Assembly: GCF_002909255.1 (NCBI RefSeq)
Contig: NZ_PIOB01000005.1
Location: forward strand, 124,001 to 188,000
DNA: 64,000 nt
Direction: 5' to 3'
Source of the DNA: Arenibacter hampyeongensis
Lineage (GTDB): Bacteria; Bacteroidota; Bacteroidia; Flavobacteriales; Flavobacteriaceae
Part shown: piece by piece, positions 4,850-63,443 of the stretch
How the letters are laid out: each line of letters begins with the position of its first letter
How positions within the stretch are numbered: position 1 is the stretch's first letter
The notes under the pieces: generated by a model
Databases searched by the model: none
What the model was told of the DNA's origin: nothing
Seen by the model: the letters and a program-made list of their open reading frames with translations, nothing else
Translations under genes and position numbers: made by a program

Positions 4850-4897
4850 GAATTCCTATTATTAATAATTTTGAATGTATTTTTAGATTTTATTGGT

Positions 4898-9029: not shown

Positions 9030-9049
9030 CTAAATGGGAGAGGTTAATA

Positions 9050-9973: not shown

Positions 9974-9988
9974 TTATTTAGTTTTTAT

Positions 9989-10005: not shown

Positions 10006-10117
10006 AATTACGCACAAAGATTTCATTCTCCCAAAATAAATTAATCAACACTTGGCATTTGGTTTAATCAATTTGGGTAATTTTTATTGGATGGTTTTAA
10101 TTGTGGAATTAAAGCTT

Positions 10118-10151
10118 AAAAAGGATTCCAAAAAAAATGGAACCCTTTTTT
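10118..10151 (-). terminator. Rho-independent terminator or attenuator between susD and nanA
   Basis: Read leftward, AAAAAGGGTTCCA and TGGAATCCTTTTT pair as a 13-base stem with one G-U wobble around a seven-T loop, and the stem ends in a U-rich tail. It sits 35 bases beyond the susD stop and 145 bases before nanA. It could end or reduce transcription from the susCD promoter, making receptor genes more abundant than enzyme genes. Confidence 0.7.
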
Positions 10152-10185
10152 CAGCAAACAACTCAATTCAAACTAACTCAATATT

Positions 10186-11688: not shown

Positions 11689-11699
11689 GTTGTTAAGTT

Positions 11700-31460: not shown

Positions 31461-31497
31461 TCTAGTGTATTTAAATAATATTAAACCTCATTTAAAC

Positions 31498-34331: not shown

Positions 34332-34342
34332 AATTAAAAATT

Positions 34343-35221: not shown

Positions 35222-35224
35222 GAA

Positions 35225-36238: not shown

Positions 36239-36249
36239 TTTTATAAGCG

Positions 36250-38109: not shown

Positions 38110-38128
38110 ACCATAACCAACCAGCCTT

Positions 38129-39727: not shown

Positions 39728-39763
39728 GAGCACTATAATCAAAAATATTAAATATTTAAAAAA

Positions 39764-41239: not shown

Positions 41240-41251
41240 TCAGAAAAAGGA

Positions 41252-42157
41252 ATGATGAAAATTGCTAATGCTCCTTGTTCATGGGGCGCCTTGGAATTTG
41301 ACCTGGAAGAAAAATCCGAAGAGATTGGCTTTGAACAGGTATTGGATGAAATTAAGGAAACAGGATATATTGGCACTGAACTGGGCGATTGGGGATACAT
41401 GCCCACCAACCCCGTCCAATTAAAAGCAGAATTGGATAACAGACACTTGGATCTGCTGGGAGCTTTTGTCCCAGTAGCTTTGGCCCAAGTGGACAATCAT
41501 GACAAGGGTGTTGTATCTGCCTTAAAAGTGGCCGAGCTTATGTTCAACGCCGGTTATAAGAATTCTTTTATTGTATTGGCCGATGACAATGGATCGGTTC
41601 CTGAACGCACCAAAAATGCCGGAAGAATTAAACCCGCTATGGGGCTTACGGATGAACAATGGAAAGTTTATGCTGCCGGAGCTGAAAAGATTGCAAGGGC
41701 TGTGAAGGATGCGTATGGTATAAGAACAGTGTTCCACCATCATTGCGCGGGTTATGTAGAAACCCCTGGGGAAATAGACAAGCTTATGACTTTGACCGAC
41801 CCGCAAATATTGGGATTGTGTTTGGATATGGGGCATTACGCCTTTGGTGGTGGAGATCCGGTCACTGCCCTAAAAAAGTTTGGGAATAGAATATGGCATG
41901 TTCATTTCAAGGATTATAGTCCCGAAGCGGCCCAGGCTTCGCAAAAGGTAAACGGGGATTACTTTGATGCCCTTAAAAGAGGGGTGTTTTGTGAACTGGG
42001 AAAAGGATCGGTAGATTTTCAATCCATTGTAAAAATATTGGAAGAAATGAAATACAACGATTGGATCGTTGTAGAACAGGATATTTTACCTGGTATGGGA
42101 AACCCAAAAATATGTGCACAGGCCAATAGGGATTATATAAAATCCTTGGGGCTTTAG
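41252..42157 (+). CDS. iolE: Inosose (2-keto-myo-inositol) dehydratase
   Basis: A 301-residue TIM-barrel protein of the xylose-isomerase-like fold that dehydrates 2-keto-myo-inositol. Typical IolE features are NAPCSWGALEFD at the start, GTELGDWGYMP at 49-59, VFHHHCAGYVETPGEID with metal-binding residues, LCLDMGHYAFGGGDP and VEQDIL near the end. Two adjacent ATG codons open the gene; either could be used. No iolI-type inosose isomerase is seen in the window. Confidence 0.92.
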   Translation: MMKIANAPCSWGALEFDLEEKSEEIGFEQVLDEIKETGYIGTELGDWGYMPTNPVQLKAELDNRHLDLLGAFVPVALAQVDNHDKGVVSALKVAELMFNAGYKNSFIVLADDNGSVPERTKNAGRIKPAMGLTDEQWKVYAAGAEKIARAVKDAYGIRTVFHHHCAGYVETPGEIDKLMTLTDPQILGLCLDMGHYAFGGGDPVTALKKFGNRIWHVHFKDYSPEAAQASQKVNGDYFDALKRGVFCELGKGSVDFQSIVKILEEMKYNDWIVVEQDILPGMGNPKICAQANRDYIKSLGL

Positions 42158-42200
42158 TTAATTGAATTTTCAGAAAACGATCATTAAGAAATATAAAACG

Positions 42201-43211
42201 ATGACAAAAGTTAGATTCGCCGTAGCAGGATTGGGAAGGATAGGAAAGATCCACTTGGAAAACTTACTTCAGATGGAACATGTGGAAGTAGTTGCAGTTA
42301 TGGACCCAATGGAAGAATGTAGACAATATGCAAAGGCAAAGAACATACCCCATATCACAAATTCTTATGAAGAGCTGTTGGCTGTTGCCCCTTTCGATTC
42401 TGTTGTGATTTGTTCCCCAACGGATACCCATGCCGATTATGTTGAAATGGCAGCGAATGCTGGTATCCATGTTTTCTGTGAAAAACCTTTGGACCTTTCC
42501 ATGCAACGGGTGGTTGAGGTGTTGAAAGTGGTAAAGAAGGCCAATATTAAGTTGATGTTAGGTTTTAACCGTAGGTTCGATAAAGAGTTTAGAAAGGTTC
42601 ATGAACTAGTAAAACAGGGTGCCGTAGGTGAGCCCCACTTGGTAAAAATTACAAGCCGAGATCCGGGTGCACCACCTGTAAGCTATATTGAAAAATCAGG
42701 AGGACTCTTCCTGGATATGACCATTCACGATTTTGATATGGCCCGCTTTGTTGTAGGCAAGGAAGTAGAGGAGGTATATGCCAAGGGAGCTGTTTTGGTG
42801 GATGCCGCCATAGGTAAGGCAGGGGATATTGACACCGCAGTTGTTACCTTGACCTATACAGACGGTACTATGGCTGTTATAGACAACAGTAGGGAGGCCG
42901 CATATGGTTACGACCAAAGAATAGAAGTATTTGGATCTAAGGGAATGGCACAGGCAGATAACAATTATGAAAACTCGCATCGCCTTTATACAAATAAGGG
43001 AATCCAAGGGGCACTTCCCCTTCATTTCTTCCTGGAGAGATATGCTGAAGCGTATAAAACGGAAATGGCCAGCTATGTAATGAGTTTAAAAAATGGCGAC
43101 GCCGTCCCTGTGGATGGAAATGATGGGTTGATGTCACTTCAAATTGGATTGGCGGCCATTAAGTCATTAAAGGAAAAAAGACCGGTGAAAATTGCCGAAA
43201 TAGGCAATTAG
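42201..43211 (+). CDS. iolG: Inositol 2-dehydrogenase (GFO/IDH/MocA family)
   Basis: A 336-residue NAD-dependent enzyme that oxidises myo-inositol to 2-keto-myo-inositol, the first catabolic step. I chose the ATG at 42201, which gives MTKVRFAVAGLGRIGKIH with the Rossmann glycines next to the N terminus. An upstream TTG would add 13 basic residues without support. Catalytic residues are K95 (CEKPLD), D172 and H176 (LDMTIHDFD), as in characterised inositol dehydrogenases. It is the last gene of the operon, 43 bases after iolE. No clear terminator follows. Confidence 0.93.
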   Translation: MTKVRFAVAGLGRIGKIHLENLLQMEHVEVVAVMDPMEECRQYAKAKNIPHITNSYEELLAVAPFDSVVICSPTDTHADYVEMAANAGIHVFCEKPLDLSMQRVVEVLKVVKKANIKLMLGFNRRFDKEFRKVHELVKQGAVGEPHLVKITSRDPGAPPVSYIEKSGGLFLDMTIHDFDMARFVVGKEVEEVYAKGAVLVDAAIGKAGDIDTAVVTLTYTDGTMAVIDNSREAAYGYDQRIEVFGSKGMAQADNNYENSHRLYTNKGIQGALPLHFFLERYAEAYKTEMASYVMSLKNGDAVPVDGNDGLMSLQIGLAAIKSLKEKRPVKIAEIGN

Positions 43212-43538: not shown

Positions 43539-44123
43539 TTGAAAAAGAGTCAACCTAATGTCAACAATGATTTTTTTCTTTCCCTTTTGGAAAAGGGAGA
43601 GAAATGTGCATTTGAGACCTTGTTTAGACTTTACTACTCCAAACTTGTACAAATTGCCAAGGGATATTTAATTTACCACCAAGAGGCAGAAAGTATTGTC
43701 CAAAATGTATTTCTAAAAATTTGGGAAAATAAAGGGACACTTAAGGAAGTGACCAATATTAATAGTTACTTATATACCATGACCAAGAATTCATGCTTGG
43801 ACCAATTAAGGCATGAAAAGGTTAAAAGAAATTTCTTAGATCAACGTTTTCGAATTAAGTCTGAAATTCAATACCAATTCATTCAAGATGACGCGGCCTC
43901 CCTTTTGCTGGAAAATGAACTGGAAAGCAAAATTATTCAGAGCATAGAATTGTTACCGGAAAAGTGTAAAAATATTTTCAAAAAAAGTAGATTCGAGGGG
44001 TTGAAGCATGGTGAAATAGCCTCGCAGATGGGCATTTCACATAAGACCGTAGACAACCATATTGCAAATGCCCTAAGGCATATGAAGCTTCATTTACGGG
44101 AGTTTATTACCATTTCCCAATAA
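43539..44123 (+). CDS. ECF RNA polymerase sigma factor, FecI-like
   Basis: A 194-residue sigma-70 family protein of the Bacteroidota FecI-like type. Region 2 includes AFETLFRLYYSKLVQIAKGYL and NINSYLYTMTKNSCLDQLR. Region 4 is LLPEKCKNIFKKSRFEGLKHG followed by the helix-turn-helix GEIASQMGISHKTVDNHI. No ATG is available before the first conserved region, so the TTG at 43539 is the likely start. It is paired with the FecR gene 59 bases downstream and should direct transcription of the susC/susD genes at 45505-50618 when the receptor is occupied. Confidence 0.9.
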   Translation: MKKSQPNVNNDFFLSLLEKGEKCAFETLFRLYYSKLVQIAKGYLIYHQEAESIVQNVFLKIWENKGTLKEVTNINSYLYTMTKNSCLDQLRHEKVKRNFLDQRFRIKSEIQYQFIQDDAASLLLENELESKIIQSIELLPEKCKNIFKKSRFEGLKHGEIASQMGISHKTVDNHIANALRHMKLHLREFITISQ

Positions 44124-44182
44124 ATTTTTTAGTTAGTACTAGGTGTAAGTCCTTTTTGAATCGTCTTAATACTATACTTTGG

Positions 44183-45328
44183 ATGATGATGGATAAAAAA
44201 ATTTCCAATTACCTTAGGGGTACGGCTACTTCTACAGAAGTAGAGGAGGTTGAGGCTTGGATTACATCCAATGATCAAAATGCCAAGAAATTCTACTCTT
44301 TCAAAGCCAAATATATTGCTTCCACGATGGATGAAACGGAGGTAGATTTGAATTCTTTTTACCATACCAATATCAATTCCAAAAATTCAACTACCAAAAA
44401 TAAAGGTCGCGTTCTATTTACTATTTTGAAATCCGCTGCTGTTTTGGCACTTCTCGTAGGGGTAACGTATATTTTTAAGGACAATATTAATGATTCGGGT
44501 TCTACTCCAATAATATCCAAAGATGCCATTACCCTGCAATTGAGCGATGGAACTGTAGAAATTATTTCAGAGGATGGGACGGCCAGAGTTGTGGATTCTG
44601 AAGGCAACGTGCTAGGGTCTCAGCGAGGGTCACAGTTGGTTTATAAAACGAACGAAACTTCAAAAGAAGAATTGATCTATAATACCCTCACTGTTCCTTA
44701 TGGTAAAAGGTTTGATATAGTATTGTCCGATGGGACCCAAGTAATTCTAAACTCAGGAACATCCCTTAAGTATCCGGTACAATTTTTAGATGGGGATAAC
44801 AGACAAGTTTTTCTAAATGGGGAAGCTTTTTTTACTGTTGCCAAAGACTTGGCGAGTCCATTTATAGTTAATACCAACGAACTTAACGTAAGGGTGATGG
44901 GGACTAAATTTAACTTGTCCTCCTATCCTGAGGATCAATTTATCAATACCACACTTGTTGAGGGATCTGTCTTGGTTTATAATAGTAATGGCACCTTTGA
45001 TTCTTCCAAAGCTGCTCCATTGGAACCTGGGTATAAAGCGGAATGGAATAAATTCAATCAGCAAATTATGATTGAAGCGGCGGATATAGCAATGCATACC
45101 GATTGGCTGAATGGAAAAATTATATTGAGACATGTGCCCTTTAAGAACATAGTCAAAAAATTGGAACGACATTATAATGTGGAGATTACCAACAATAATC
45201 TAAAACTGGATGAGGAATTGTTTACGGCCAGTTTTGATATTGAAACCATTGATCAAGTTTTTAGAACTTTCAATGAGACCTACGAAATGGATTATAAGAT
45301 CAACAACAGACAAATAGTTATTAACTAA
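44183..45328 (+). CDS. FecR-family anti-sigma factor
   Basis: A 381-residue single-pass membrane regulator. Three ATG codons in a row (44183, 44186, 44189) open the gene; I prefer these to a TTG at 44156. The cytoplasmic N-terminal domain (KKISNYLRGTATSTEVEEVEAW) holds the sigma factor. One membrane segment lies near residues 80-100. The periplasmic FecR domain has VPYGKRFDIVLSDGTQVILNS and a DUF4974-type end, LRHVPFKNIVKKLERHYNV. It receives the signal from the STN domain of the SusC encoded downstream and releases the sigma factor. Confidence 0.92.
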   Translation: MMMDKKISNYLRGTATSTEVEEVEAWITSNDQNAKKFYSFKAKYIASTMDETEVDLNSFYHTNINSKNSTTKNKGRVLFTILKSAAVLALLVGVTYIFKDNINDSGSTPIISKDAITLQLSDGTVEIISEDGTARVVDSEGNVLGSQRGSQLVYKTNETSKEELIYNTLTVPYGKRFDIVLSDGTQVILNSGTSLKYPVQFLDGDNRQVFLNGEAFFTVAKDLASPFIVNTNELNVRVMGTKFNLSSYPEDQFINTTLVEGSVLVYNSNGTFDSSKAAPLEPGYKAEWNKFNQQIMIEAADIAMHTDWLNGKIILRHVPFKNIVKKLERHYNVEITNNNLKLDEELFTASFDIETIDQVFRTFNETYEMDYKINNRQIVIN

Positions 45329-45504: not shown

Positions 45505-48500
45505 ATGAAAAACCTAATTAAGCTGGAGAGGGAATCCTGTTTCCGGCTACAATATGATTTGAAAATGAAACTTACTACATTAGTTATATTAATTGTTTCG
45601 CTTTTTCAAATTCATGCAAACGAAACTTATGGTCAAAAGACCAAGATTACATTGAATCTCGAAAATGTAAGTATCGAAAATGTATTGAATAAAATTGAAT
45701 CACTTACAGAATTCAAATTCATGTACAACGATAAGGAGGTAGATTATAAGAAAATTGTCTCTGTAAGTGCGGATAAGGAATTGGTAACTGCCATTTTGGA
45801 AAGGCTTTTTTCCAAGATGGATATTACTTACGAGGTATTGGACAAACAGATTGTTCTAAAACCTGAAAAAAATGATAGATCACAAATCAAAGATGTTGTA
45901 AAGAAGGTTGAAGTCTATCAGCAGTTCGTAGTAAATGGGAGTATTGTTGATGGTGAAGGGAATATGTTGCCGGGGGCAAACGTACTGGAAAAAGGAACTG
46001 CGAACGGAACCCAGTCCGATTTTGATGGTAATTTTACTATTGATGTAAATAGTCAAAATGCTGTTCTTGTGGTTTCCTATATTGGATATACAACTAAGGA
46101 AGTTTCCGTAAATGGGCAGGCGAATGTCTCCATAACTTTAGAGGAGAGTGCCACTGGCTTAAGCGAGGTAGTAGTTACCGCCTTAGGAATTAAACGGGAA
46201 AAGAAATCCTTGGGATACGCATCTCAGGAGCTGGATGCCGATCAGGTTTCCTCCTCAAAGGAACCAAATCTCTTAAATGGTATATCCGGTAAAGTTGCAG
46301 GATTACAGATTACCAACAGTCCTTCAGGACTTGGTGGTTCTGCCAGAGTATCAATACGAGGCGATGCCTCATTGAACATTAATGGTAACTCCCCATTGTT
46401 CATTGTGGATGGAACTCCGATAAGTAATTCAATTGTTGGATCTAGCGGCTCCGGTACCCAGGATGTGGATTATGGCAATGGAGCTTCAGAAATAAATCCT
46501 GAAAATATAGAATCGATCAACGTACTAAAAGGACCTGCCGCTGCGGCATTATACGGTGCTAGAGCAGCAAACGGTGCAATTATTATAACCACGAAGAAAG
46601 GAAATAGTAAAAAAGGTCAATTAGGTGTTTCCATTAATTCTGGTATTACAATGGAAAGTGTTTTGCTATTACCGGATTGGCAAAATGAGTATGGTCAGGG
46701 TAACAACCAACAATTTGCATTTGTAGATGGTAGTGGAAGTGGTATTGCGGATGGAGTGGATGAAAGTTGGGGCCCTAGACTCGATACAGGATTAATGATT
46801 CCTCAATTCGATTCGCCTAGAGCTGATGGTACAAGAGGAGGAGATTATTTGGTTAGCAACTCGCCAATTACTCCTACGCCTTGGGTTTCCATGCCTGATA
46901 ATACGTTGGATTTCTTCAATACCGGTTATACGAAGACCAATAGCATTGCCATTTCTAAATCCGGCGACTTGGGAAATATTAGGTTTTCCTATCAAAATTT
47001 GGATCAAGAAGGTATTGTTCCCAACACGGATCTTACGAGAAATACCTTTAACCTAAGTACAGGGCTTAACCTGACCGATAAATTAACAATTAACACAAAT
47101 GTTAATTACATTAAGGCGGATAGTGGTAACAGACCATCCTTGAGTTATGGTACCGAAAGCATCATGTATCTGTTTATTTGGTATGGTAGGCAATTGAACA
47201 CCAATAGCATGCGCGATTATTGGATGCCTGGAAGAGAAGATTTACAGCAGTTTAACTATAACTACAATTATCACGACAACCCATTCTTTAATGTTTATGA
47301 GAATACAAATTCACAAAATAAGGATAGGGTATATGGTAATATCAGCGCCAATTATGCCATAAACGACAATTGGAATTTAATGGTAAGGACAGGTAGGGAT
47401 TTCTACCGCGATTTAAGGACCAAGAAAAGAGCGTTTAGTACCCAACGTTTCCCCTTAGGGTATTATAGGGAGGACAATGTGTTTTTTGAAGAGTCCAATA
47501 CAGACTTTCTTTTGTCTTATGATAAAACGTTCAACGAAAAATGGAACGTAAATATATCCGCCGGGGGAAACCAATTTCGGCAAAGACAGGATTATACACA
47601 AACGGTGGCCCCGCAATTGATCAACCCTGGAATCTATTCTTTTAATAATACAAGAAAGCCATTGGAAGTGAATACCAACAATCAACAGAAGAGAATTAAT
47701 AGTCTCTACGGTTTTGCCAGGTTTGCTTATGACAATTTACTTTTCTTGGATATTACTGGTAGAAACGATTGGTCCAGTACTCTGCCTACGGATAACAATT
47801 CCTATTTTTATCCTTCTGCTACATTGAGCGCCATTGCGAGTGATATGTTTGAAATGCCATCATTCGTGTCCTTTGCAAAATTAAGGGCGGCATATGCCGA
47901 GGTTGGTAACGATACGGACCCTTATAAACTTTCAAGTTTTTTCACCAATGAAACACCCTTTGGGGATAATCCCATTTTAACGGAATCTTCATTGATTCCC
48001 AATGCCGTTTTGAAACCTGAGATTACCTCATCCTATGAAATTGGAGCCGATATTCGTTTGTTTCAAAGTAGGGTTAATTTGGACGCCACTTATTATGACG
48101 GTAGAACCAAAAACCAAATTATTCCTATCAGTACGGATATTTCCAGTGGATATACCAGTAAATTGATCAATGCCGGGGAAGTGAGGAATTATGGTTTTGA
48201 GGCAATTCTAAATGTTGTTCCGATAAAAACTGCTAATTTTAGTTGGAACACCATGTTCAACTATTCCCGAAATAGAAGTGAGGTTACCGATTTGGGAGGT
48301 ATAGATTATACACTTACGGAGAGGAACAGTGTTTTTATTCAAGCCAGGGAAGGTGGATCTATAAGTGCTATTTACGGTAGGGGCTTTCAACGTGTTGAAG
48401 ATCCCAATAGCCAATATTTCGGACAAAAAATAGTTAATTCAAATGGTATCCCTATTAGAACGGACGGGTTAGTGTACCAAGGGGATTATGCACCTGATTA

Positions 48501-49026
48501 TACCCTCGGAATACTGAATAGTTTTAAATATAGGTCTTTGGATTTCGGTTTTATGTTCGATATTAGGCAGGGAGGAATAGTAGTATCCAGAACCAAGACT
48601 ATTGGTTCAACTGCCGGGCAATTAAAAGAGACCTTGGAAGGAAGGGAAACTGGGATAGTGGCCGAAGGTGTTGTGGAAACCTCTCCTGGAGTGTATACTC
48701 CAAATACGACCAATGTGGATGTAAGGACCTACAACAACCGCTATTATGAAAGGGATAATGTGGAGGCTGCCAAATACGATGCTTCCTATACCAAATTGCG
48801 TGAAGTTTCTTTGGGCTACACAGTACCCGCAAGAATTATAGATAAACTGCCCATTAGCAAGGCAAGATTATCACTTACTGGTAGAAATTTGGTGCTTTGG
48901 ACAGATAACCCGCATTTTGATCCGGAAACGGTGGCCGTTGCCGGTGGTACTTTACAGCCGGGTATAGAAAATATGTCTTATCCCAGTACTAAAACATACA
49001 CGCTAAATTTACAAATCGATTTTTAA
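45505..49026 (+). CDS. SusC-type TonB-dependent transducer with STN signalling domain
   Basis: A 1173-residue outer-membrane receptor. After a long leader and hydrophobic segment ending near ETYGQ at 44, an STN domain covers about 47-115. It reads ITLNLENVSIENVLNKI through KMDITYEVLDKQIVLKP. A CarboxypepD_reg-like domain follows at about 145-222, then the plug (SEVVVTALGIKREKKSLGYA) and the barrel, which ends YTLNLQIDF. The STN domain marks it as a transducer that contacts the FecR protein encoded upstream. Its ligand is not revealed by adjacent enzymes. It lies between the inositol operon and the amino-alcohol operon. Confidence 0.94.
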   Translation: MKNLIKLERESCFRLQYDLKMKLTTLVILIVSLFQIHANETYGQKTKITLNLENVSIENVLNKIESLTEFKFMYNDKEVDYKKIVSVSADKELVTAILERLFSKMDITYEVLDKQIVLKPEKNDRSQIKDVVKKVEVYQQFVVNGSIVDGEGNMLPGANVLEKGTANGTQSDFDGNFTIDVNSQNAVLVVSYIGYTTKEVSVNGQANVSITLEESATGLSEVVVTALGIKREKKSLGYASQELDADQVSSSKEPNLLNGISGKVAGLQITNSPSGLGGSARVSIRGDASLNINGNSPLFIVDGTPISNSIVGSSGSGTQDVDYGNGASEINPENIESINVLKGPAAAALYGARAANGAIIITTKKGNSKKGQLGVSINSGITMESVLLLPDWQNEYGQGNNQQFAFVDGSGSGIADGVDESWGPRLDTGLMIPQFDSPRADGTRGGDYLVSNSPITPTPWVSMPDNTLDFFNTGYTKTNSIAISKSGDLGNIRFSYQNLDQEGIVPNTDLTRNTFNLSTGLNLTDKLTINTNVNYIKADSGNRPSLSYGTESIMYLFIWYGRQLNTNSMRDYWMPGREDLQQFNYNYNYHDNPFFNVYENTNSQNKDRVYGNISANYAINDNWNLMVRTGRDFYRDLRTKKRAFSTQRFPLGYYREDNVFFEESNTDFLLSYDKTFNEKWNVNISAGGNQFRQRQDYTQTVAPQLINPGIYSFNNTRKPLEVNTNNQQKRINSLYGFARFAYDNLLFLDITGRNDWSSTLPTDNNSYFYPSATLSAIASDMFEMPSFVSFAKLRAAYAEVGNDTDPYKLSSFFTNETPFGDNPILTESSLIPNAVLKPEITSSYEIGADIRLFQSRVNLDATYYDGRTKNQIIPISTDISSGYTSKLINAGEVRNYGFEAILNVVPIKTANFSWNTMFNYSRNRSEVTDLGGIDYTLTERNSVFIQAREGGSISAIYGRGFQRVEDPNSQYFGQKIVNSNGIPIRTDGLVYQGDYAPDYTLGILNSFKYRSLDFGFMFDIRQGGIVVSRTKTIGSTAGQLKETLEGRETGIVAEGVVETSPGVYTPNTTNVDVRTYNNRYYERDNVEAAKYDASYTKLREVSLGYTVPARIIDKLPISKARLSLTGRNLVLWTDNPHFDPETVAVAGGTLQPGIENMSYPSTKTYTLNLQIDF

Positions 49027-49037: not shown

Positions 49038-50618
49038 ATGAAAAACATACATATTTCAAAACAGGGTTTCTTCATGATGTTTCTTTTGGCGGCTTTTATG
49101 GGTTGTACGGAAGACTTCGAAGAAATAAATAAAAACCCGAATTTTCCTGAGCAAGCTTCTTCGGAATTGCTTTTGCCAGGGGTTTTAAGGCAAATGGCCT
49201 ACAATTGGGGGAATCAAGGATGGGAAGAAGGCTTTACCGTAGTACAGTACGGAGCTCGACTTCAATTTACTTCAGGTGATAGATACAATTGGTCGCCTAC
49301 AAGTGACCCTTACAATTCATGCTATGACGGTTTAAGGGATATTGAGAATATTATTCGCGATAACAAAGAGAATCCTGACCGTCAAAATTATTATGGCGTT
49401 GGGCTGATCGTAAAATCTTGGATCTATTCCTATTTAACGGATGCCTATGGAGATGTTCCATACACAGACGCCATAAAAGGAATTTCTGATGATAATATTA
49501 CACCTGAATTTACACCACAACAGCAAATATACGATGGTATTTTGGCCGACTTAAAAGCTGCCAATGCAGCCTTGACTGGAGCAGATAATATATCGGGAGA
49601 TATATTGTACGGTGGGGATGTGCTAAAATGGAGAAAATTTGCCAATTCGCTCCGACTTCGTTTGTTGATGAGGATCAGTGATGTTGATAATTCAAAGGCT
49701 GTTGCCGGCATGTCAGAGATTATGGGCGATTTAAGCACTTATCCCATATTTGGCAGCAATGCGGATGCAGCATTGTTACAATGGAATCCGGATAATCCTC
49801 AACCCAAATATGATACCCGTTCAGGGAGTTTTGATGAGGTTAGATTAAGTCTTACCTTGGAAACTAGACTCAAGGAGCTAAACGATAGAAGACTTATCGT
49901 TTTTGCACAACCCACTTCCAATTCGGGAAAAGGTATATATTCCGATAATATAGATGATTATGTAGGCATGCCAAATGGCTTGGACGATGAAGCGGCCTTA
50001 AGTTATAGTCCCTCTGGAAACCCCGATGAAGTTGGGTCTAATTTCATTTCCAGAATTGGGATTCTTTTAGGATGTAGGGCGTGTAATGTAGAGCTGGCTT
50101 CGGCAACGGCCTCCCAAACCATAATAATGGATTATTCTGAGCTTCAATATATTTTGGCTGAAGCAAGGGAAAGAAATTTCATTACCGTTGGTGATGCCGC
50201 AACTTACTATGAAAATGGTATTAGAGCCTCATTTTCCTATTATTTGGATAGGATCAATGCTGGTGGTTGGAATGAAATTGCTGCCGATCTACAAGCTTTT
50301 GACTTGGATGCTTATATAGCACAGACTACTGTGGCTTACTTGGGAACAGCGGGGGAAAAGTTGGAAAAGATTGCCTTGCAAAAATGGATCTCCTTATTCT
50401 ATACCGGCTTTGAAGCTTGGTCGGATTGGAGACGTACCGGAATGCCGGAAGTTATTCCCGGTGTAGATGCAGGTAATGATAAATTGGTCCCAGTAAGGTT
50501 TCAATTTCCTAATGAGGTTAAATCAACAAATAATGCCAACTACCAACAAGCAGTCACAAGAATGGGAGGAGATGACTTAAATACCAGACTTTGGTGGGAT
50601 GTTGCCAGTAATAATTAA
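49038..50618 (+). CDS. SusD-like lipoprotein (SusD-like_2 type)
   Basis: A 526-residue surface lipoprotein, lipobox FMGC. The mature start TEDFEEINKNPNFPEQ and the PGVLRQMAYNW pattern are typical of the SusD-like_2 branch. Further features are SWIYSYLTDAYGDVPYTDA, GGDVLKWRKFANSLRLRLLMR and YSELQYILAEARERN. It forms a unit with the transducer 11 bases upstream and is closed by a terminator. The ligand is unknown. Confidence 0.92.
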   Translation: MKNIHISKQGFFMMFLLAAFMGCTEDFEEINKNPNFPEQASSELLLPGVLRQMAYNWGNQGWEEGFTVVQYGARLQFTSGDRYNWSPTSDPYNSCYDGLRDIENIIRDNKENPDRQNYYGVGLIVKSWIYSYLTDAYGDVPYTDAIKGISDDNITPEFTPQQQIYDGILADLKAANAALTGADNISGDILYGGDVLKWRKFANSLRLRLLMRISDVDNSKAVAGMSEIMGDLSTYPIFGSNADAALLQWNPDNPQPKYDTRSGSFDEVRLSLTLETRLKELNDRRLIVFAQPTSNSGKGIYSDNIDDYVGMPNGLDDEAALSYSPSGNPDEVGSNFISRIGILLGCRACNVELASATASQTIIMDYSELQYILAEARERNFITVGDAATYYENGIRASFSYYLDRINAGGWNEIAADLQAFDLDAYIAQTTVAYLGTAGEKLEKIALQKWISLFYTGFEAWSDWRRTGMPEVIPGVDAGNDKLVPVRFQFPNEVKSTNNANYQQAVTRMGGDDLNTRLWWDVASNN

Positions 50619-50654
50619 ATGTATAATTAAGTAAAGTTTATTATGAATCTTTTA

Positions 50655-50686
50655 GACCATAGGGATTCCTTCCCTATGGTCTTTTT
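50655..50686 (+). terminator. Rho-independent terminator after susD
   Basis: GACCATAGGGA and TCCCTATGGTC form a perfect 11-base stem around TTCCT, followed by five T residues. It ends the FecI/FecR-controlled susCD unit 37 bases after the susD stop and isolates the permease gene. Confidence 0.9.
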
Positions 50687-50789: not shown

Positions 50790-52280
50790 ATGAGCAAAGG
50801 CGTGAAGTACAAGAAAATGGACAAATCCTATTTTGAATCCAGGGAACTTAAACGCCATGCGGGTGTTTGGTCATTATGGGCCTTGGGGGTGGGTGCGGTG
50901 ATATCTGGACATTTTTCCGGATGGAACTTGGGACTGGCTTCAGGAGGGTGGGGCGGTATGTTCGTTGCAACCTGTATTGTAGCCATAATGTATGTCGGGC
51001 TTACCCAGAGCGTAGCAGAAATGTCCCCTGCACTGCCACATACGGGAGGCGCGTATTCTTTTGCTAGATCTGCCATGGGACCCTGGGGTGGATTCTTTAC
51101 AGGACTGGTGGAAAACTTGGAATTTATTCTTACACCCGCCGTTATTGTTTTTTTTCTCAGTAATTATATGCAGGGTATCTTTGAAACTGCGCCCGAAATG
51201 TTGCCTTTTTGGTGGTTCGGATTTTATACCATCTTTACCCTGTTGAATATAATAGGAGTGGAGCTTTCATTCAAATTCACTGTCACCCTCACTTTATTGG
51301 CTTTGGGTTGTTTGGGTATTTTTTGGGTATCATCTATCGGAAGTGCCGATTTTACTACCTATGCGTTAGATATTAAAGCAGGTGCTGATGGTTCTGCTGA
51401 GCATTTGCCCGGTGGAGGAGGTTCATTATTCCCCTTGGGATGGGAAGGAGCATTAAAAGCCATGCCCTTTGCGGTATGGTTATTTTTGGCCATTGAACAG
51501 TTGCCTTTGGCAGCCGAGGAGTCGGTAGATCCCAAAAAGGATATGCCAAAGGGATTGACCTATGGGATCATTACTCTGATTATTTCTGCTTTTTTAATCC
51601 TTTGGCTCAATGCTTCAATACCATTGGGGTCCTTTGCCCTATCCCAATCCGGAGAACCTTTATTGGACGGATTTAAAGTGCTGTACGGGGACAACATAGC
51701 CAAACTTTTAGCTTTGGTGGCTTCAATTGGACTTTTGGCCTCATTCCATACCATTATCTTCGCTTTTGGGAGACAGATCTATTCCCTATCTAGGGCAGGA
51801 TATTTTCCTGTAATGCTTTCCCTTACCCATAATAAAAGAAAAACACCTTATACCGCATTAATTTTGGGATCGGTTATTGGTTTTGTGGTTTTAATGGTCA
51901 CCAAATTTTTGGCGGGAAACGAAAGTGAGGTTTTTATTGGAGGAGCTTTGTTGAACATCGCTGTTTTTAGTGCCATGTTATCCTATATTTTACAATGCGG
52001 GTCCTTTTTGTTATTGCGAAAGAACAAGCCGGATCTGGAAAGACCCTATGTTAGTCCTTTTGGGAAATTCGGAGCTTGGACCACTATTTTGCTGGCCAGT
52101 GTGATTATCTATTTTCAGCTTCAGGATCAATCCTATAGAACGGCAGTTTTTATTTCCATAGGCTATTTGGTAATAGGATTGGTATATTTTGGACTTAAAG
52201 GAAGACATCGATTGATACTCTCCCCTGAGGAAGAATTTGCCTTGGAGCACGAAACAAAAAAAGCTCAAGTAAAAAACTAA
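50790..52280 (+). CDS. APC-family permease, ethanolamine-permease type
   Basis: A 496-residue inner-membrane transporter with about 12 hydrophobic segments. The N-terminal region is strongly like the ethanolamine permease branch of the APC superfamily: LWALGVGAVISGHFSGWNLG at about 31-50, then AEMSPALPHTGGAYSFARSA and GPWGGFFTGLVENLEF. FAFGRQIYSLSRAGYFP is also characteristic. It probably imports a small amine by proton exchange. The genes downstream encode a gamma-glutamyl ligase, two dehydrogenases and an amidotransferase, which fits ethanolamine or a similar amino alcohol as cargo. The 364-base gap to the ligase gene contains a terminator-like hairpin. Confidence 0.87.
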   Translation: MSKGVKYKKMDKSYFESRELKRHAGVWSLWALGVGAVISGHFSGWNLGLASGGWGGMFVATCIVAIMYVGLTQSVAEMSPALPHTGGAYSFARSAMGPWGGFFTGLVENLEFILTPAVIVFFLSNYMQGIFETAPEMLPFWWFGFYTIFTLLNIIGVELSFKFTVTLTLLALGCLGIFWVSSIGSADFTTYALDIKAGADGSAEHLPGGGGSLFPLGWEGALKAMPFAVWLFLAIEQLPLAAEESVDPKKDMPKGLTYGIITLIISAFLILWLNASIPLGSFALSQSGEPLLDGFKVLYGDNIAKLLALVASIGLLASFHTIIFAFGRQIYSLSRAGYFPVMLSLTHNKRKTPYTALILGSVIGFVVLMVTKFLAGNESEVFIGGALLNIAVFSAMLSYILQCGSFLLLRKNKPDLERPYVSPFGKFGAWTTILLASVIIYFQLQDQSYRTAVFISIGYLVIGLVYFGLKGRHRLILSPEEEFALEHETKKAQVKN

Positions 52281-52644
52281 ATTTTATACCTCTAGATGGG
52301 CATTAATGAATATTTTTATAGAAGATACTCTTGTCGATATATGTATTGGAAACCTGGATTTGCAACAACTGGGATAATATAAATATACCAGTGTCCTAAA
52401 ATCATACCTTAGAGTCTAATAATCAACCATATAGTAGTCAAGTAAAACTTTATTGTCCAAGACGTAAGTTTTATCCGGCCTATAGAAAACAATAATAATG
52501 AACCTATGAAATGAGCATAAACAAAATTAATTTTTTGCATACCAACCGAAATAACTAAATTTTTTTTATGCGAAAGCGTAGCGGTTGTTTTATGCATAAA
52601 ATTATTATTACGCTTTTTTTCAGATTAATAAAAATTTTAAATAG
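52281..52644. other. 364-base leader region before the ligase gene
   Basis: No gene is supported. The sequence is A+T-rich and carries the terminator-like hairpin at 52573-52620, directly before the ligase start. Related short strings TTTTTGCATA, TTTTATGCGA and TTTTATGCATAAAA cluster at 52532-52601. They could be repeated binding half-sites. Confidence 0.5.
52573..52620 (+). terminator. Terminator- or attenuator-like hairpin just before the ligase gene
   Basis: AAAGCGTA at 52573-52580 pairs with TACGCTTT at 52609-52616, and the stem runs into a T-tract. Its loop contains a perfect 14-base palindrome, TTTTATGCATAAAA (52588-52601). The structure ends 24 bases before the ATG at 52645. It could terminate permease read-through or regulate entry into the ligase operon. 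The stem is only 8 base pairs, so strength is uncertain. Confidence 0.5.
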
Positions 52645-54021
52645 ATGAAAAAGGAAGATCCTATAATAACTCCGGAATCGGTTAAGAAATATATTAAGGA
52701 ACATCAAATTGAAAATATAAAGTTGGCCGTAGTAGATGTAGATGGCGTGCTACGTGGGAAGTATGTAAATTCTAAAAAATTCCTTTCCGCTTTGGACAAG
52801 GGATTCGGATTTTGCAGTGTAATCTTTGGCTGGGACTCCAATGATGTTTTGTATAAGAATGATTCTTTCACCGGTTGGGCAGATGGTTTTACGGATGCCA
52901 ATGCTACTATAGATGCCTCCAGTATGAGAGTTTTGCCAACGGAAGATTATAAATCGGTCATATTTTTGGTTGATTTTTCCGAGAGCAATGCTTCCAGTGT
53001 GTGCCCCAGATCTGTACTGCGTAAAACCTTGGATAGATTAGGGAATATAGGGTATACGGCAAGCGCATCTTTTGAGTTCGAATTTTTTCTGTTCAATGAG
53101 ACACCGAAATCTATTCGCGATAAGAACTACCATAATTTGGAGCCTATGACGCCCGGTAATTTTGGATACTCCATATTGAGAAGCTCTACCCATGCCAATT
53201 TTTACCACGAAATAATGAGTCTTGCCCAGGAGATGGGCATGCCTTTGGAAGGTCTGCACACCGAGACCGGGGCAGGGGTGCTAGAAGGTGCTCTTGAATA
53301 TTCCGAAGCGCTAAGGGCAGCCGATAATGGGGCTTTGTTTAAAAACTTTGTGAAAGTATGGGCACAACAGAACAGTTTAATGGCCTCTTTTATGGCCAAA
53401 TGGTCTTCCAGTTATCCAGGACAATCCGGACATATCCACATTTCTTTGCAAAATAAGGATGGTTCATCTGCCTTTTATGATAAAAGCAAGGAACATGGAA
53501 TGTCAGACGTTATGCGCTGGTTTATAGGAGGTCAACAAAAATTAATGCCCGAATTGCTGGCCATGGTGGCCTCTACCTGTAATAGTTATACGCGACTCAT
53601 TCCTGGTTTTTGGGCTCCTACGGCTGCCTCATGGGGTATGGACAACAGAACTTGTGCCCTTAGGGCCATCCCTGGATCGGAAAAATCCCAAAGAGTGGAA
53701 TACAGGGTGTCTGCAGCCGATATTAATCCATATTTGGCGCTGGCAGCGGCTATTGGTTCCGGAATTTGGGGCATAGAGAATAAAATTGAACCAACCAAAG
53801 CTGTGGATGGTAACGCCTATGATGTAGATTTTCCTCAGGAGCTTCAGTTGCCCAGGACCTTATCACATGCCGCCGAGAAATTTAAGAATTCAAAAATTGC
53901 ACGAGACTTGTTTGGTGATATATTTGTGGATCATTATGCGTATACCCGACTATGGGAAGATCAACAACAACTGGGAGCCATAACAGACTGGCAATTAAAA
54001 CGTTATTTTGAAATAATATAA
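52645..54021 (+). CDS. Glutamine-synthetase-like gamma-glutamyl amine/amino-alcohol ligase
   Basis: A 458-residue enzyme of the glutamine synthetase fold that joins the side-chain carboxylate of glutamate to an amine with ATP. Metal and substrate residues are present: E144/E146 (FEFEFF), E207 and E214 (HTETGAGVLE), H263 (SGHIHISL), R317, R335 (NRT), R340 and E352-x-R354. The ammonia-site region reads GWADGFTDANATID, unlike ordinary GlnA. It therefore looks like the PuuA/GlnA-like ligases. It begins an operon with aldehyde dehydrogenase (2-base gap), alcohol dehydrogenase and amidotransferase. Predicted product: gamma-glutamylethanolamide. The exact amine is inferred from the neighbours. Confidence 0.85.
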   Translation: MKKEDPIITPESVKKYIKEHQIENIKLAVVDVDGVLRGKYVNSKKFLSALDKGFGFCSVIFGWDSNDVLYKNDSFTGWADGFTDANATIDASSMRVLPTEDYKSVIFLVDFSESNASSVCPRSVLRKTLDRLGNIGYTASASFEFEFFLFNETPKSIRDKNYHNLEPMTPGNFGYSILRSSTHANFYHEIMSLAQEMGMPLEGLHTETGAGVLEGALEYSEALRAADNGALFKNFVKVWAQQNSLMASFMAKWSSSYPGQSGHIHISLQNKDGSSAFYDKSKEHGMSDVMRWFIGGQQKLMPELLAMVASTCNSYTRLIPGFWAPTAASWGMDNRTCALRAIPGSEKSQRVEYRVSAADINPYLALAAAIGSGIWGIENKIEPTKAVDGNAYDVDFPQELQLPRTLSHAAEKFKNSKIARDLFGDIFVDHYAYTRLWEDQQQLGAITDWQLKRYFEII

Positions 54022-54023
54022 AA

Positions 54024-55409
54024 ATGATAAAAACCATATCACCTATAGACAACAGTATTTATTATACTGCTGAAGAACATGGCCCAAAGGACATTGAGCA
54101 GGCCTTAAGTTTAGCACAAAATGCTTTTTCATTGTGGTCCGATTTATCTATTGCAGAACGAGCAAAATATATCACATCTTTTGTAGAGGCTATTGTTCAG
54201 GATAAAAATGAAATTGCCCTCGAAATTACTTGGCAAATGGGTAGGCCATTGGGCCAATCGCCTGGGGAGATAAAGGGATTTGCAGACCGAGCCCATTATA
54301 TGATCGGTGCTGCTGAAGAGGCTCTAACCGATTATAAGGTGGTAGATAGCGCGAATCCGGATAAAAGATGGGTAGAACGTGTACCCATTGGCGTAGTTGG
54401 CGTGCTAAGCCCTTGGAATTATCCTTTCCTGACCTCTGTAAATGCTATTGTTCCCGCTCTAATGGCAGGAAACGTGGTGGTGTTAAAGCATTCTTTTCAG
54501 ACACCTTTGGTTGCGGAACGATATGCCAAGGCAGCTGTGAAGGCCGGCTTACCGAAGGGTGTTTTTCAAATATTACACCTGAATCATAAAAATGCGGCCC
54601 AATTAATTGCCGATACCAGAATTGATGGGGTGTACTTTACAGGTTCTGTACAAGGGGGAATAGCCGTTCAAAATTCATTGCTGAATAAGTTTATTCCCTG
54701 TGGTTTGGAACTGGGAGGGAAAGATCCCGCCTATGTAATGGCCGATGCCTCTTTGGACAACAGTGTAGAAAATTTGGTGGACGGGGCATTCTTTAATAGT
54801 GGGCAATCCTGCTGTGGTATAGAAAGGATTTATGTCCACGAATCCCTGTACGACAAGTTTGTTGATGGATTTGTAGCGTTGACAAAGCAATACAGCTTAG
54901 GAAATCCTTTGGATGCAGGGACCAATCTTGGACCAATGGTGAAGACAGATGCGGCTAATTACGTAAGGAAACAAATAGAACAGGCATTGGGTAAGGGGGC
55001 AAAGTCCTTGGTGGCCGAATCTCTGTTCGCAGCTTCCAAAAGAGATACTCCCTATTTATCCCCTCATGTGCTGGTGAATGTGGATCATAGCATGGACGTA
55101 ATGAGCGAGGAAAGTTTTGGACCTGTTGTTGGAATAATGAAGGTAAAGAACGATGAAGAAGCATTGCGGTTAATGAATGATTCCCAATACGGACTTACCG
55201 CTTCCTTATGGGGCAATGACATGGATAGAGCCTTTAATCTGGGAAGGAAAATAGAAACTGGTACTGTGTTTATGAACCGCTGTGATTATTTGGATCCTGC
55301 CTTGGCTTGGACGGGTGTTAAAAATTCAGGAAAGGGCGTTACACTGTCAAAAATTGGCTATGACCATGTTACACGGGTAAAGTCGTTTAACTTTCGAAAA
55401 GGGAAATAA
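54024..55409 (+). CDS. NAD(P)-dependent aldehyde dehydrogenase (gamma-glutamyl aldehyde oxidation predicted)
   Basis: A 461-residue aldehyde dehydrogenase. N132 (SPWNYPF), E229 (LELGGKDP) and catalytic C263 (GQSCC) are in place, and the cofactor loop is FTGSVQGG at 205-212. The length is slightly short for the family, as in several PuuC- or succinate-semialdehyde-type enzymes. In this operon it should oxidise the gamma-glutamyl aldehyde made by the alcohol dehydrogenase to gamma-glutamylglycine, if ethanolamine is the substrate. It starts 2 bases after the ligase stop. The specific substrate is inferred. Confidence 0.85.
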   Translation: MIKTISPIDNSIYYTAEEHGPKDIEQALSLAQNAFSLWSDLSIAERAKYITSFVEAIVQDKNEIALEITWQMGRPLGQSPGEIKGFADRAHYMIGAAEEALTDYKVVDSANPDKRWVERVPIGVVGVLSPWNYPFLTSVNAIVPALMAGNVVVLKHSFQTPLVAERYAKAAVKAGLPKGVFQILHLNHKNAAQLIADTRIDGVYFTGSVQGGIAVQNSLLNKFIPCGLELGGKDPAYVMADASLDNSVENLVDGAFFNSGQSCCGIERIYVHESLYDKFVDGFVALTKQYSLGNPLDAGTNLGPMVKTDAANYVRKQIEQALGKGAKSLVAESLFAASKRDTPYLSPHVLVNVDHSMDVMSEESFGPVVGIMKVKNDEEALRLMNDSQYGLTASLWGNDMDRAFNLGRKIETGTVFMNRCDYLDPALAWTGVKNSGKGVTLSKIGYDHVTRVKSFNFRKGK

Positions 55410-55449
55410 GATTTATAAATCAATTTATTGAATTAAAAAATAAGAATTA

Positions 55450-56622
55450 ATGCAGTTAGCAAATACAAATTGGAATTATCCTACCACCATCTGGTTTGGA
55501 AATGGCAGAATAAACGAGATATCACAGGCTTGCAAAAAATTGGGGATCAAGAACCCTTTATTTGTTACCGATGAAGGTCTGGTAAAATTGGATATAGTAG
55601 AAAAAACTATAAATATTTTAAAAAAGGACGGATTAAAATTTACCGTGTACAGTGATGTACAGGGAAATCCTACTGAAAAAAATGTGGTCGATGGAGTAGC
55701 CCATTATTTAAAAAATAAACATGATGGAGTTATTGCCTTTGGTGGTGGTTCTGCCATAGATGCAGCCAAGACAATCGCATTTATGTCAGGACAGACAAAG
55801 TCTCTTTGGGATTTTGAAGATGTGGGCGACAATTGGAGTTATGCGGACCTCGCAGGTATTGCTCCCATTATTGCTGTCCCGACTACTGCCGGCACAGGGT
55901 CTGAGGTGGGTAGGGCATCGGTAATTTTGGATGAAAAATTACACACCAAGAAAATCATTTTTCACCCTAAAATGTTACCGGCTATAGTGATATCCGATCC
56001 TGAATTGACTTTGGGCTTGCCTCCCCATATTACTGCATGGACAGGGGTAGATGCTATGGTACATGCCATTGAGGCATATTGTGCTCCGGGATATCATCCG
56101 ATGGCCGAGGGTATTGCTATTGAAGCCATCCGTATTATTGCCAAATATTTGCCGATTGCTGTTAAGGACGGAAAAAATTTGGAAGCTCGGGGACAAATGC
56201 TGGTAGCTGCTTCTATGGGAGCCACAGCCTTTCAGAAAGGATTGGGCTCCGTGCATTCCGTGGCCCATCAATTGGGAGCCATATACAATAAACAACACGG
56301 TTTACTAAATGCTATAATATTACCATATGCCTTAAAACAGAATAAGGCAGCTATTGAAGATAGAATGGTGCATTTAAGCAAAGTCCTTGGATTGGAAAAG
56401 TTAGGTACCGAGGCTATTATCGATTATATAATAGGGCTGAGAAAGGAATTGAACATTCCCCATACGCTAAAGGAAATAGATATTAATGCTGATAAGGCCA
56501 AGGAAATAGGTGAAATGGCCTTTAAAGACCCATCAACACCTTCCAACGCCAAACCTGTTAATGCAAAGGATTTGGAGCAACTTTTTAGAGCTGCTGTATC
56601 CGGTGAAATAAAAGGACTGTAA
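55450..56622 (+). CDS. Iron-containing (group III) alcohol dehydrogenase
   Basis: A 390-residue dehydrogenase of the iron-dependent family. The nucleotide site is GGGSAIDAAK at 98-107, and the metal ligands are D201, H205 (GVDAMVHAIEAY), H269 (GLGSVHSVAHQ) and H283 (NKQHG). TTAGTGSEV at 145-153 is also characteristic. It oxidises primary alcohols to aldehydes with NAD. In this operon it occupies the place of the amine oxidase PuuB of the polyamine pathway. This suggests that the gamma-glutamylated substrate bears a hydroxyl group. It lies 40 bases after the aldehyde dehydrogenase gene and 2 before the amidotransferase gene. Confidence 0.9.
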   Translation: MQLANTNWNYPTTIWFGNGRINEISQACKKLGIKNPLFVTDEGLVKLDIVEKTINILKKDGLKFTVYSDVQGNPTEKNVVDGVAHYLKNKHDGVIAFGGGSAIDAAKTIAFMSGQTKSLWDFEDVGDNWSYADLAGIAPIIAVPTTAGTGSEVGRASVILDEKLHTKKIIFHPKMLPAIVISDPELTLGLPPHITAWTGVDAMVHAIEAYCAPGYHPMAEGIAIEAIRIIAKYLPIAVKDGKNLEARGQMLVAASMGATAFQKGLGSVHSVAHQLGAIYNKQHGLLNAIILPYALKQNKAAIEDRMVHLSKVLGLEKLGTEAIIDYIIGLRKELNIPHTLKEIDINADKAKEIGEMAFKDPSTPSNAKPVNAKDLEQLFRAAVSGEIKGL

Positions 56623-56624
56623 AG

Positions 56625-57422
56625 GTGAAATTATTAATAGTAGAAGGCAATAACGAACAAACACGCTTACTTAGGGGAACCTTTGGGATACCACCATATC
56701 ATCTAATGTTCCAGGAAATGTTAAGGGGCCTGGTTCCAGGAGCAAAGACAGATTTTGCCTTTCCGGCAGATGTTGACAGTGAATTGCCCACTGATGCACA
56801 GTTGAAAAATTATGATGGTGTATTGTGGACCGGCAGCTCTCTTAGTGTCCTCGATGACATCCCTGACGTTCAACAGCAATTGAATTTTGCCGATGAGGTT
56901 TTTAAGAGCGGTGTACCATTTTACGGCAGCTGTTGGGGTATGCAGATAGCCACTGTAGTTGCTGGGGGCAAGGTGGCACTTAGCAAGAACGGTTTGGAGT
57001 TTGGTGTCTCCAAGCCCATTGAACTTACCGAACTTGGTAGGCAAAGTCCATTGTTCGCAGCCCGTAAATCTGCTTATTCTGCCCTGTGCATTCATTTTGA
57101 TGAGGTGTCTGAAATTCCTAAAAATGCCCATGTTTTAGCCAGTAATTCCCATTCCAAAGTGCAGGCCATGACATTTGATTATAAAAAAGGTTCATTCTTT
57201 GGGGTGCAGTACCATCCAGAATTCAGTACCTCGGATATGGCCATGATAGCTTCATTTTTGTCGCAAAAACTGGTTGATAACCATGCTTTTAAATCCGTCA
57301 CGGAAGTACACGAATTTTGTCTTTTATTGAGGGAGCAAAACGGATTTCCACCTGAAATTAGCGATTACCAACTCCATACCCAAGAAATAATGGCTTGGTT
57401 GAAACTTATTTCAAGCATGTAA
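56625..57422 (+). CDS. Class I glutamine amidotransferase-like gamma-glutamyl hydrolase
   Basis: A 265-residue stand-alone amidotransferase domain starting at GTG two bases after the dehydrogenase stop. The triad is C103 (YGSCWGMQ), H197 and E199 (QYHPEFS). No synthetase domain is attached and no partner subunit is nearby. It is therefore likely to act as a hydrolase, like PuuD in the polyamine pathway, splitting a gamma-glutamyl amide and returning glutamate. With ethanolamine as input the other product would be glycine. The C-terminal about 50 residues extend beyond the core domain. The gene ends the operon and is followed by a terminator. Confidence 0.87.
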   Translation: MKLLIVEGNNEQTRLLRGTFGIPPYHLMFQEMLRGLVPGAKTDFAFPADVDSELPTDAQLKNYDGVLWTGSSLSVLDDIPDVQQQLNFADEVFKSGVPFYGSCWGMQIATVVAGGKVALSKNGLEFGVSKPIELTELGRQSPLFAARKSAYSALCIHFDEVSEIPKNAHVLASNSHSKVQAMTFDYKKGSFFGVQYHPEFSTSDMAMIASFLSQKLVDNHAFKSVTEVHEFCLLLREQNGFPPEISDYQLHTQEIMAWLKLISSM

Positions 57423-57443: not shown

Positions 57444-57489
57444 AATGAGGATGGGTCAAACTATGGGAACCATCCTCATTTTTTTTTTT
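57444..57489 (+). terminator. Rho-independent terminator after the amidotransferase gene
   Basis: AATGAGGATGG pairs with CCATCCTCATT around a 15-base loop, followed by a run of T residues to 57489. It ends the rightward amino-alcohol operon. The opposite strand has no T-run, so it does not serve the leftward GH92 gene that ends at 57534. Confidence 0.85.
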
Positions 57490-59795: not shown

Positions 59796-59909
59796 ATAAT
59801 AGATAAATAAGCTTAAACTTTTGGGCAATCCTAAATATGAATTGCATAGGGTGCTAATCAAAAAAACAATAAAATATTGATAATGGGAAAGATATGGAAA
59901 TTAATATTG

Positions 59910-63418: not shown

Positions 63419-63443
63419 TTAATAAAATTTAAAATAAGATATT

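Follow-up and report, generated by a model that had tools for sequence, protein, structure and literature searches.

We propose that a five-gene operon of Arenibacter hampyeongensis, a marine member of the Flavobacteriaceae, very probably encodes a catabolic pathway for ethanolamine that requires neither vitamin B12 nor a microcompartment. The operon lies at 50790..57422 of a 64,000-nucleotide stretch of the 5.43 Mb genome (contig NZ_PIOB01000005.1, positions 124,001 to 188,000, assembly GCF_002909255.1), here called the window, to which all unprefixed coordinates refer. Judged by sequence comparison, it is a real and probably functional variant of the published gamma-glutamylation pathway, with a ligase and a hydrolase from other subfamilies. 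A preliminary description of the window had suggested a gamma-glutamyl route for an amino alcohol, most likely ethanolamine, and our comparisons support that suggestion. What the description missed is that neither ligase nor hydrolase is orthologous to its counterpart among the known ethanolamine enzymes, and that the operon stands in a setting of inositol, SusCD and phosphoesterase genes.

All five genes were found intact where they had been placed and in the same order, on the plus strand and with no internal stop in a check of the open reading frames (ORFs). The first encodes an APC-type (amino acid-polyamine-organocation) permease of 496 residues (50790..52280), assigned to the ethanolamine permease family TIGR00908 with a score under the family cut-off. 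After 364 bp follows a glutamine synthetase (GS)-like ligase of 458 residues, the predicted gamma-glutamylethanolamide synthetase (52645..54021; PF00120), which has W323 at the place of GS residue E327. Then, at spacings of 2, 40 and 2 bp, come an aldehyde dehydrogenase predicted to form gamma-glutamylglycine (54024..55409; 461 residues; PF00171, with the Glu and Cys motifs present at E229 and C263), a group III iron alcohol dehydrogenase predicted to act on gamma-glutamylethanolamide (55450..56622; 390 residues; PF00465 and PF25137), and a class I glutamine amidotransferase (GATase)-type hydrolase, the predicted gamma-glutamylglycine hydrolase (56625..57422; 265 residues; GTG start; PF00117). 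The inverted repeat AATGAGGATGG / CCATCCTCATT and the T run behind it (57444..57480, plus strand), noticed by direct reading and absent from the list of our hairpin scan, are likely to mark the end of the operon.

We propose that the permease imports ethanolamine and that the ligase, using ATP, joins it to the gamma-carboxyl group of glutamate, forming gamma-glutamylethanolamide. The iron alcohol dehydrogenase would then oxidize the hydroxyl group with NAD, and the aldehyde dehydrogenase would convert the resulting aldehyde to gamma-glutamylglycine. Finally, the hydrolase would release glycine and regenerate glutamate, and the glycine would enter the glycine cleavage system; a glycine decarboxylase is present in the genome. 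In keeping with the remark that the window holds no eut gene, EutB (PF06751), the one eut gene for which the whole genome was searched, was absent from it, while an E. coli control was positive.

This series of reactions has a published precedent. The operon of Chromohalobacter salexigens, Agrobacterium and Phaeobacter MED193 (EtoVWX, ETAGA, GAADDH, GETADH, GGAH), as described in PMC10132767 and PMC9397018, shares the four reactions. Table 2 of PMC9397018 gives the C. salexigens enzymes as PF00120, iron-dependent PF00465, PF00171 and PF05013; the first three families, which serve steps 1 to 3, and the order ligase, aldehyde dehydrogenase, alcohol dehydrogenase are those of the window. The homologous Phaeobacter operon runs hydrolase, TRAP (tripartite ATP-independent periplasmic) transporter, ligase, aldehyde dehydrogenase, alcohol dehydrogenase; its proteins are raised on phosphoethanolamine, and EtoX binds ethanolamine at 7.9 uM (PMC10132767). 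An iron alcohol dehydrogenase route, which had been put forward as new, is thus already in print (PMC9397018, PMC10132767). Flavobacterium is listed among the genera said to use ethanolamine in a passage of PMC9397018 that leaves the route unstated, and no paper on a gamma-glutamyl ethanolamine route in Bacteroidota was found in the open-access collection searched, as judged by title and start of abstract.

Dehydrogenases of operons with the C. salexigens layout are about 50% identical to those of the window. For seven such operons on alphaproteobacterial plasmids (L119, L121-L126; L numbers denote loci and G numbers genomes), the values are 48-51% for the aldehyde dehydrogenase and 49-52% for the alcohol dehydrogenase; identity is 30% to PuuC and 32-33% to FucO/EutG. 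Residues D201, H205, H269 and H283 of the window enzyme align with what we take to be the metal-ligand positions of FucO. Our trees were built by a quick search with Shimodaira-Hasegawa-like (SH-aLRT) support only, and in them a single clade unites the iron alcohol dehydrogenases from the two kinds of operon (26 rows, SH-aLRT 97; 85, unstarred, in a smaller tree). Forcing the window enzymes together with those of a second Bacteroidota type, which is arranged as permease, ligase, alcohol dehydrogenase, PuuD-like hydrolase and aldehyde dehydrogenase, gave a borderline result in the approximately unbiased test (p-AU 0.047, groups picked after viewing the trees).

Compared with the C. salexigens type, the window has a ligase of another clade, an APC permease instead of a TRAP transporter, a class I GATase-type hydrolase instead of PF05013, and no adjoining RpiR regulator gene. 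The ligase is 29-34% identical to the ligases of the same seven operons. It scores 204 bits against 5dm3, where the Paracoccus denitrificans ligase (L123) scores 603; we take 4uab/4xf5 to be the ethanolamine-binding protein of C. salexigens and 5dm3 the neighbouring ligase. The TRAP protein of L123 matches 4uab with 567 bits, and that of L122 is 75% identical to it. In the ligase tree (104 ORFs, left from 153 after thinning at 82% identity), the known kind forms a clade of 12 with SH-aLRT 100, and the window ligase groups with the second Bacteroidota type at 99. On this evidence the window ligase and those of the known TRAP-linked operons belong to separate clades and are not orthologues. The last-step enzyme is likewise of the PF00117 class I GATase type and not of the PF05013 type of C. 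salexigens; its residues C103, H197 and E199 are the same in all 19 sequences aligned. Read most simply, the dehydrogenase pair was retained, and the ligase, together with the hydrolase and the transporter, was replaced.

The Streptomyces cluster around GlnA4, a characterised gamma-glutamylethanolamide ligase, is a further relative. By its description in PMC6529630, it shares a GS-like synthetase, an aldehyde dehydrogenase and a glutamine-amidotransferase gene, orf5, with the window, but it is actinobacterial, has a short-chain dehydrogenase where the window has the iron enzyme, and carries its own regulator gene. The article describes its last step in two ways: the legend of Fig. 2 calls orf5 a glutamine amidotransferase, and the discussion speaks of the formylglutamate amidohydrolase family (PMC6529630). 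If the same reactions persist but the ligase, alcohol dehydrogenase, hydrolase and transporter that serve them change from lineage to lineage, ethanolamine use would be undercounted by searches that look only for eut genes or for the known ligase clade.

The active site of the ligase speaks to its chemistry. Aligned to GS, it keeps E129, E131, E212, E220, H269, H271, R321, R339, R344, E357 and R359, which make up the metal, glutamate and nucleotide sites; the ammonia-site glutamate, E327, is lost and its place taken by W323. At this place PauA7 has W and GlnA4 has F (PMC6529630). It is hardly credible that the genes are a housekeeping or regulatory GS cluster with no role in amine breakdown. 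The ligase does belong to PF00120 and matches the GlnA model TIGR00653, but its 229.8 bits lie far below the cut-off of 429.15, the ammonia-site residue is gone, the genome carries a separate GSIII (a type III GS), and 4 of the 18 Arenibacter genomes lack the ligase altogether.

We also consider it very unlikely that the operon breaks down polyamines or diamines as the E. coli Puu pathway does, with the alcohol dehydrogenase incidental. Ligase, aldehyde dehydrogenase and class I GATase hydrolase are indeed of the PuuA, PuuC and PuuD kinds, acting on the same gamma-glutamyl scaffold, and two relatives of the ligase occur with polyamine-type ABC transporters. However, the Puu pathway uses an amine oxidase, PuuB, instead of an alcohol dehydrogenase, and its proteins are 20-30% identical to those of the window (29.6% for the ligase to PuuA, 30% for the aldehyde dehydrogenase to PuuC). 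No PuuB-like ORF was found in the Arenibacter ligase loci, and the iron alcohol dehydrogenase lies within the operon in all 14 ligase-bearing Arenibacter genomes. Thus, the absence of a PuuB-like gene and the low identities led us to reject a Puu-type reading. The nearest ligase with a specific annotated substrate, at 37.6% a distant relative, is IpuC of the isopropylamine locus on Paenarthrobacter plasmid pTC2 (L120). GATase genes lie nearby there too, but the locus differs in also encoding a P450, a ferredoxin and a short-chain dehydrogenase; nothing related to the pTC2 P450 was found in the Arenibacter ligase loci.

Three observations point to ethanolamine as the substrate. First, two ligases that are 58% and 60% identical to that of the window (L060 and L064) adjoin TRAP proteins that match 4uab with 515 and 485 bits. 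L060 has an alcohol dehydrogenase and an aldehyde ferredoxin oxidoreductase, and L064 has both dehydrogenases, with the TRAP gene divergent on the opposite strand. Second, a Photobacterium plasmid (L127) carries the five genes in the window order, and its permease scores 552.8 bits against the ethanolamine cut-off of 381.75. Third, glycine-linked genes adjoin two operons of the known type: L121 is followed by glyA and an L-serine ammonia-lyase gene, and L126 by bhcRABCD. The same logic could serve another primary amino alcohol, such as 2-amino-1-propanol, 3-aminopropanol or 4-aminobutanol, giving gamma-glutamyl-alanine, -beta-alanine or -gamma-aminobutyrate for the hydrolase to split. The two dehydrogenases require just a primary alcohol, the window permease falls below the ethanolamine cut-off, and IpuC, though distant, serves isopropylamine breakdown. 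We regard this alternative as unlikely, because of the 4uab-type proteins beside close ligases, the same gene order with a permease over the cut-off, and the glycine-linked genes.

Several findings weigh against ethanolamine catabolism. The preliminary description spoke of an ethanolamine-type permease; TIGR00908 is indeed its best family (352.6 bits; the next family scores 102.4), but the score is 29 bits below the cut-off of 381.75. The permeases of the window and four close relatives all fall just short, at 351-376. A tree forced to join the window ligase with the known ligases was rejected (p-AU 0.0024, groups again picked after viewing the trees). Tryptophan at the E327 place also occurs in ligase relatives from quite other settings, so W323 speaks against ammonia and not for ethanolamine. 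Relatives at 48-53% identity occur with an aminotransferase and a polyamine-type ABC transporter (L034, L036), with a GMC (glucose-methanol-choline) oxidoreductase (L032, L033) and in the large X345-HAD group described below; the ligase alone therefore does not fix the amine. The dehydrogenases are not confined to this setting either: aldehyde dehydrogenases 51-52% identical to that of the window, and so no more distant from it than those of the known operons, occur at L035 and L036, where no iron alcohol dehydrogenase was seen, and the alcohol dehydrogenase clade includes L132, without a nearby ligase, and L117 and L078, without such an aldehyde dehydrogenase. Lastly, L052 has permease, ligase and hydrolase, and no dehydrogenase was found between or beside them.

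The recurrence of the operon argues that the five genes did not come together by chance. A search for the same order elsewhere, which had been suggested as a check, found it in other Arenibacter, in other Flavobacteriaceae and on the Photobacterium plasmid. The ligase is present in 14 of 18 Arenibacter genomes, and all 14, the window and 13 others (L037-L048, L166), keep the five-gene order; the ligase is 85-98% identical in 12 Arenibacter records. Six further Flavobacteriaceae loci have the same order (L049, L050=L167, L051, L168, L169, L170). As the same five genes recur in the same order across these loci and L127, we do not think that chance assembled them.

Among 397 Flavobacteriaceae genomes, 25 had a ligase match (1e-50): seven loci were of the window type (window counted), 16 of the second type, one had a short-chain dehydrogenase instead, and one was an X345-HAD locus. 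The phylum sample gave matches in 52 of 395 genomes, and 33 of the 51 others, examined by neighbourhood, comprised seven loci of the second type, two short-chain, two of the known type, 21 X345-HAD and one ligase alone. By these counts, the Bacteroidota carry the reaction set in several versions. Permeases of the other versions pass the ethanolamine cut-off in all four second-type loci scanned (L102, L111, L171, L212; L171 from the family sample) and in both short-chain loci scanned (L211, L218). No separate hydrolase was found at L190, a second-type locus.

The X345-HAD module consists of a ligase of the same superclade, a 345-residue protein and an HAD hydrolase, often with a short GS-like gene (336 residues) upstream. 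It occurs in many Mucilaginibacter, Fodinibius, Balneolaceae and other Bacteroidota (45 loci; for example L084:5525-11441, L085, L109, L185-L189). The arrangement is a conserved module, and the two 345-residue proteins tested gave no Pfam match. We rejected the idea that the whole ligase subfamily is tied to ethanolamine, as 18 of 20 loci from the better-scoring phylum matches after the window were of this kind. Two other arrangements were observed. A Desulfobacteraceae metagenome-assembled genome (L060:3825-7974) has TRAP genes of the EtoX type, the ligase and the iron alcohol dehydrogenase, but where the aldehyde dehydrogenase would come next it has an aldehyde ferredoxin oxidoreductase; this may be an anaerobic form of the pathway. 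In Aminobacter aminovorans (L126:3410-14589), bhcRABCD, the beta-hydroxyaspartate cycle genes, adjoin a known-type ethanolamine operon.

Ethanolamine is a building block of membranes and among their commonest head groups. We tentatively suggest that Flavobacteriaceae have a locus for the use of membrane head groups, built like a polysaccharide locus, and that the ethanolamine pathway forms its inner end. A SusCD pair controlled by an extracytoplasmic function (ECF) sigma factor and FecR would import a phospho-ethanolamine compound, and in Arenibacter inositol as well; candidates are glycerophosphoethanolamine, glycerophosphoinositol, phospholipid head groups and pieces of glycosylphosphatidylinositol (GPI) anchors. 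Ethanolamine would be released by secreted phospholipase C, phosphodiesterase and phosphatase and then burnt by the gamma-glutamyl pathway, as inositol would be by the iol pathway. If the ethanolamine pathway works as proposed, Bacteroidota that degrade algal and animal matter can use a common membrane head group without vitamin B12, perhaps through SusCD-type uptake, and the linkage to inositol and phosphoesterase genes makes growth on phospholipid head groups directly testable.

This suggestion is based on phosphoesterase and SusCD genes recurring across two operon types. In all four non-Arenibacter window-type genomes of the family sample, phosphoesterase genes directly precede the permease gene at a distance of 37-97 bp and on the same strand. 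The protein is phosphodiesterase-like (PF01676/PF01663) in G471 and G706 and resembles purple acid phosphatase in Pricia antarctica (G669); G753 has both kinds and a protein with metallo-beta-lactamase-like histidine motifs (by reading) and no Pfam hit; secretion was judged from signal peptides by eye. Of three further loci of window or near-window type, L051 has a GDSL-type lipase/acylhydrolase before the permease, and L049 and L052 have none of the kinds searched. In the second type, a phosphatase, a phosphodiesterase (64% identical to that of L169) and a GDPD_2 protein follow the operon at L173; SusC, SusD and phospholipase C (PF04185) precede it at L181 and L183; a phospholipase C relative lies near the operon at L182; and a SusC-like gene follows at L171, L172 and L209. 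The L183 SusD and the one preceding the window-type operon in G778 and G749 share 71% identity. Phosphoesterases occur at 9 of 51 ethanolamine-type loci versus 0 of 45 X345-HAD loci, and SusC/D at 18 of 51 versus 1 of 45; these counts are only descriptive, since the queries were taken from loci of the ethanolamine type, only loci of at least 11 kb entered the count, closely related species do not give independent observations, and some loci are a single place retrieved twice (L050=L167, L038=L165).

Other findings count against a head-group locus. No phosphoesterase stands next to the permease in Arenibacter. Of the 28 second-type loci, 21 lack phosphoesterases and SusC/D (7 have them). Also, a terminator-like hairpin of 12 pairs lies between susD and the permease gene (50654..50682, plus strand; hairpin scan), so the two may belong to separate transcripts, and a single transcript from susC to the hydrolase gene is doubtful. 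Such hairpins show no excess in the region (12 found versus 13.8 in shuffles). A known parallel to the setting is offered by the PusCD phosphate-utilisation loci of Flavobacterium, which also have SusCD-like pairs beside phosphodiesterases and phosphatases; they respond to phosphate depletion, and the word 'ethanolamine' is absent from the main text of PMC8115612.

Upstream of the operon, on the plus strand, lie a SusD-like surface lipoprotein (49038..50618; PF12771) and a SusC-like TonB-dependent transporter (45505..49026), both frequent neighbours, a FecR-type anti-sigma factor (44156..45328) and an ECF sigma factor (43539..44123). Before these comes an inositol catabolism cluster (33390..43211, plus strand) with a class II aldolase (IolJ-like), IolB, IolC, IolD, a sodium:solute symporter, an IolA-type methylmalonate-semialdehyde dehydrogenase, IolE-like and IolG genes; IolB, C, D, G and the IolA-type enzyme pass their cut-offs, and the IolE-like protein is below its own. 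Ligase and IolD each occur in 14 of 18 Arenibacter genomes, and the 14 are identical (Fisher p 3e-4, uncorrected for kinship). They share a contig and strand in 13 of these, and in G787 each lies close to the end of a different contig. The stretch from IolG to the permease holds sigma-FecR-SusC-SusD in nine Arenibacter genomes, the window included, and another SusC-SusD in two (G778, G749); it is empty in two (G593, G775) and unreadable in G787.

Across the family sample, 8 of 397 genomes have both IolD and a ligase, whatever its type, where 1.3 would be expected; outside Arenibacter the figure is 5 of 394 (p 0.0018, uncorrected for kinship), on different contigs in all five. SusCD proteins 75-84% identical stand beside the ethanolamine operon in two other genera (G753; G471 and G669), where IolD lies on another contig in G753 and was not found at 1e-150 in G471 and G669. 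Ahead of the inositol cluster, also on the plus strand, are a PafA alkaline phosphatase (31465..33138; 744 bits, cut-off 650) and a phytase-like phosphatase (29409..31460; PF02333 in two stretches). We rejected these as fixed parts of the locus, as they lie beside the inositol cluster in just 3 of 14 Arenibacter loci, the same three for both; of the 18 Arenibacter genomes, four have a phytase match, which in one case is distant (54%) and on another contig.

Downstream of the operon, a GH92 gene (alpha-mannosidase family; 57534-59861, minus strand) is followed by a second SusC/SusD-like pair (60272-64000). Together with the inositol and ethanolamine genes, these are compatible with the use of GPI anchors, a link made by adjacency only. 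At the other end of the window (2526-14999) is what appears, by reading alone, to be a locus of the sialic acid or N-acetylhexosamine type, with sialidase-, epimerase-, GH20- and NanA-like genes and SusCD.

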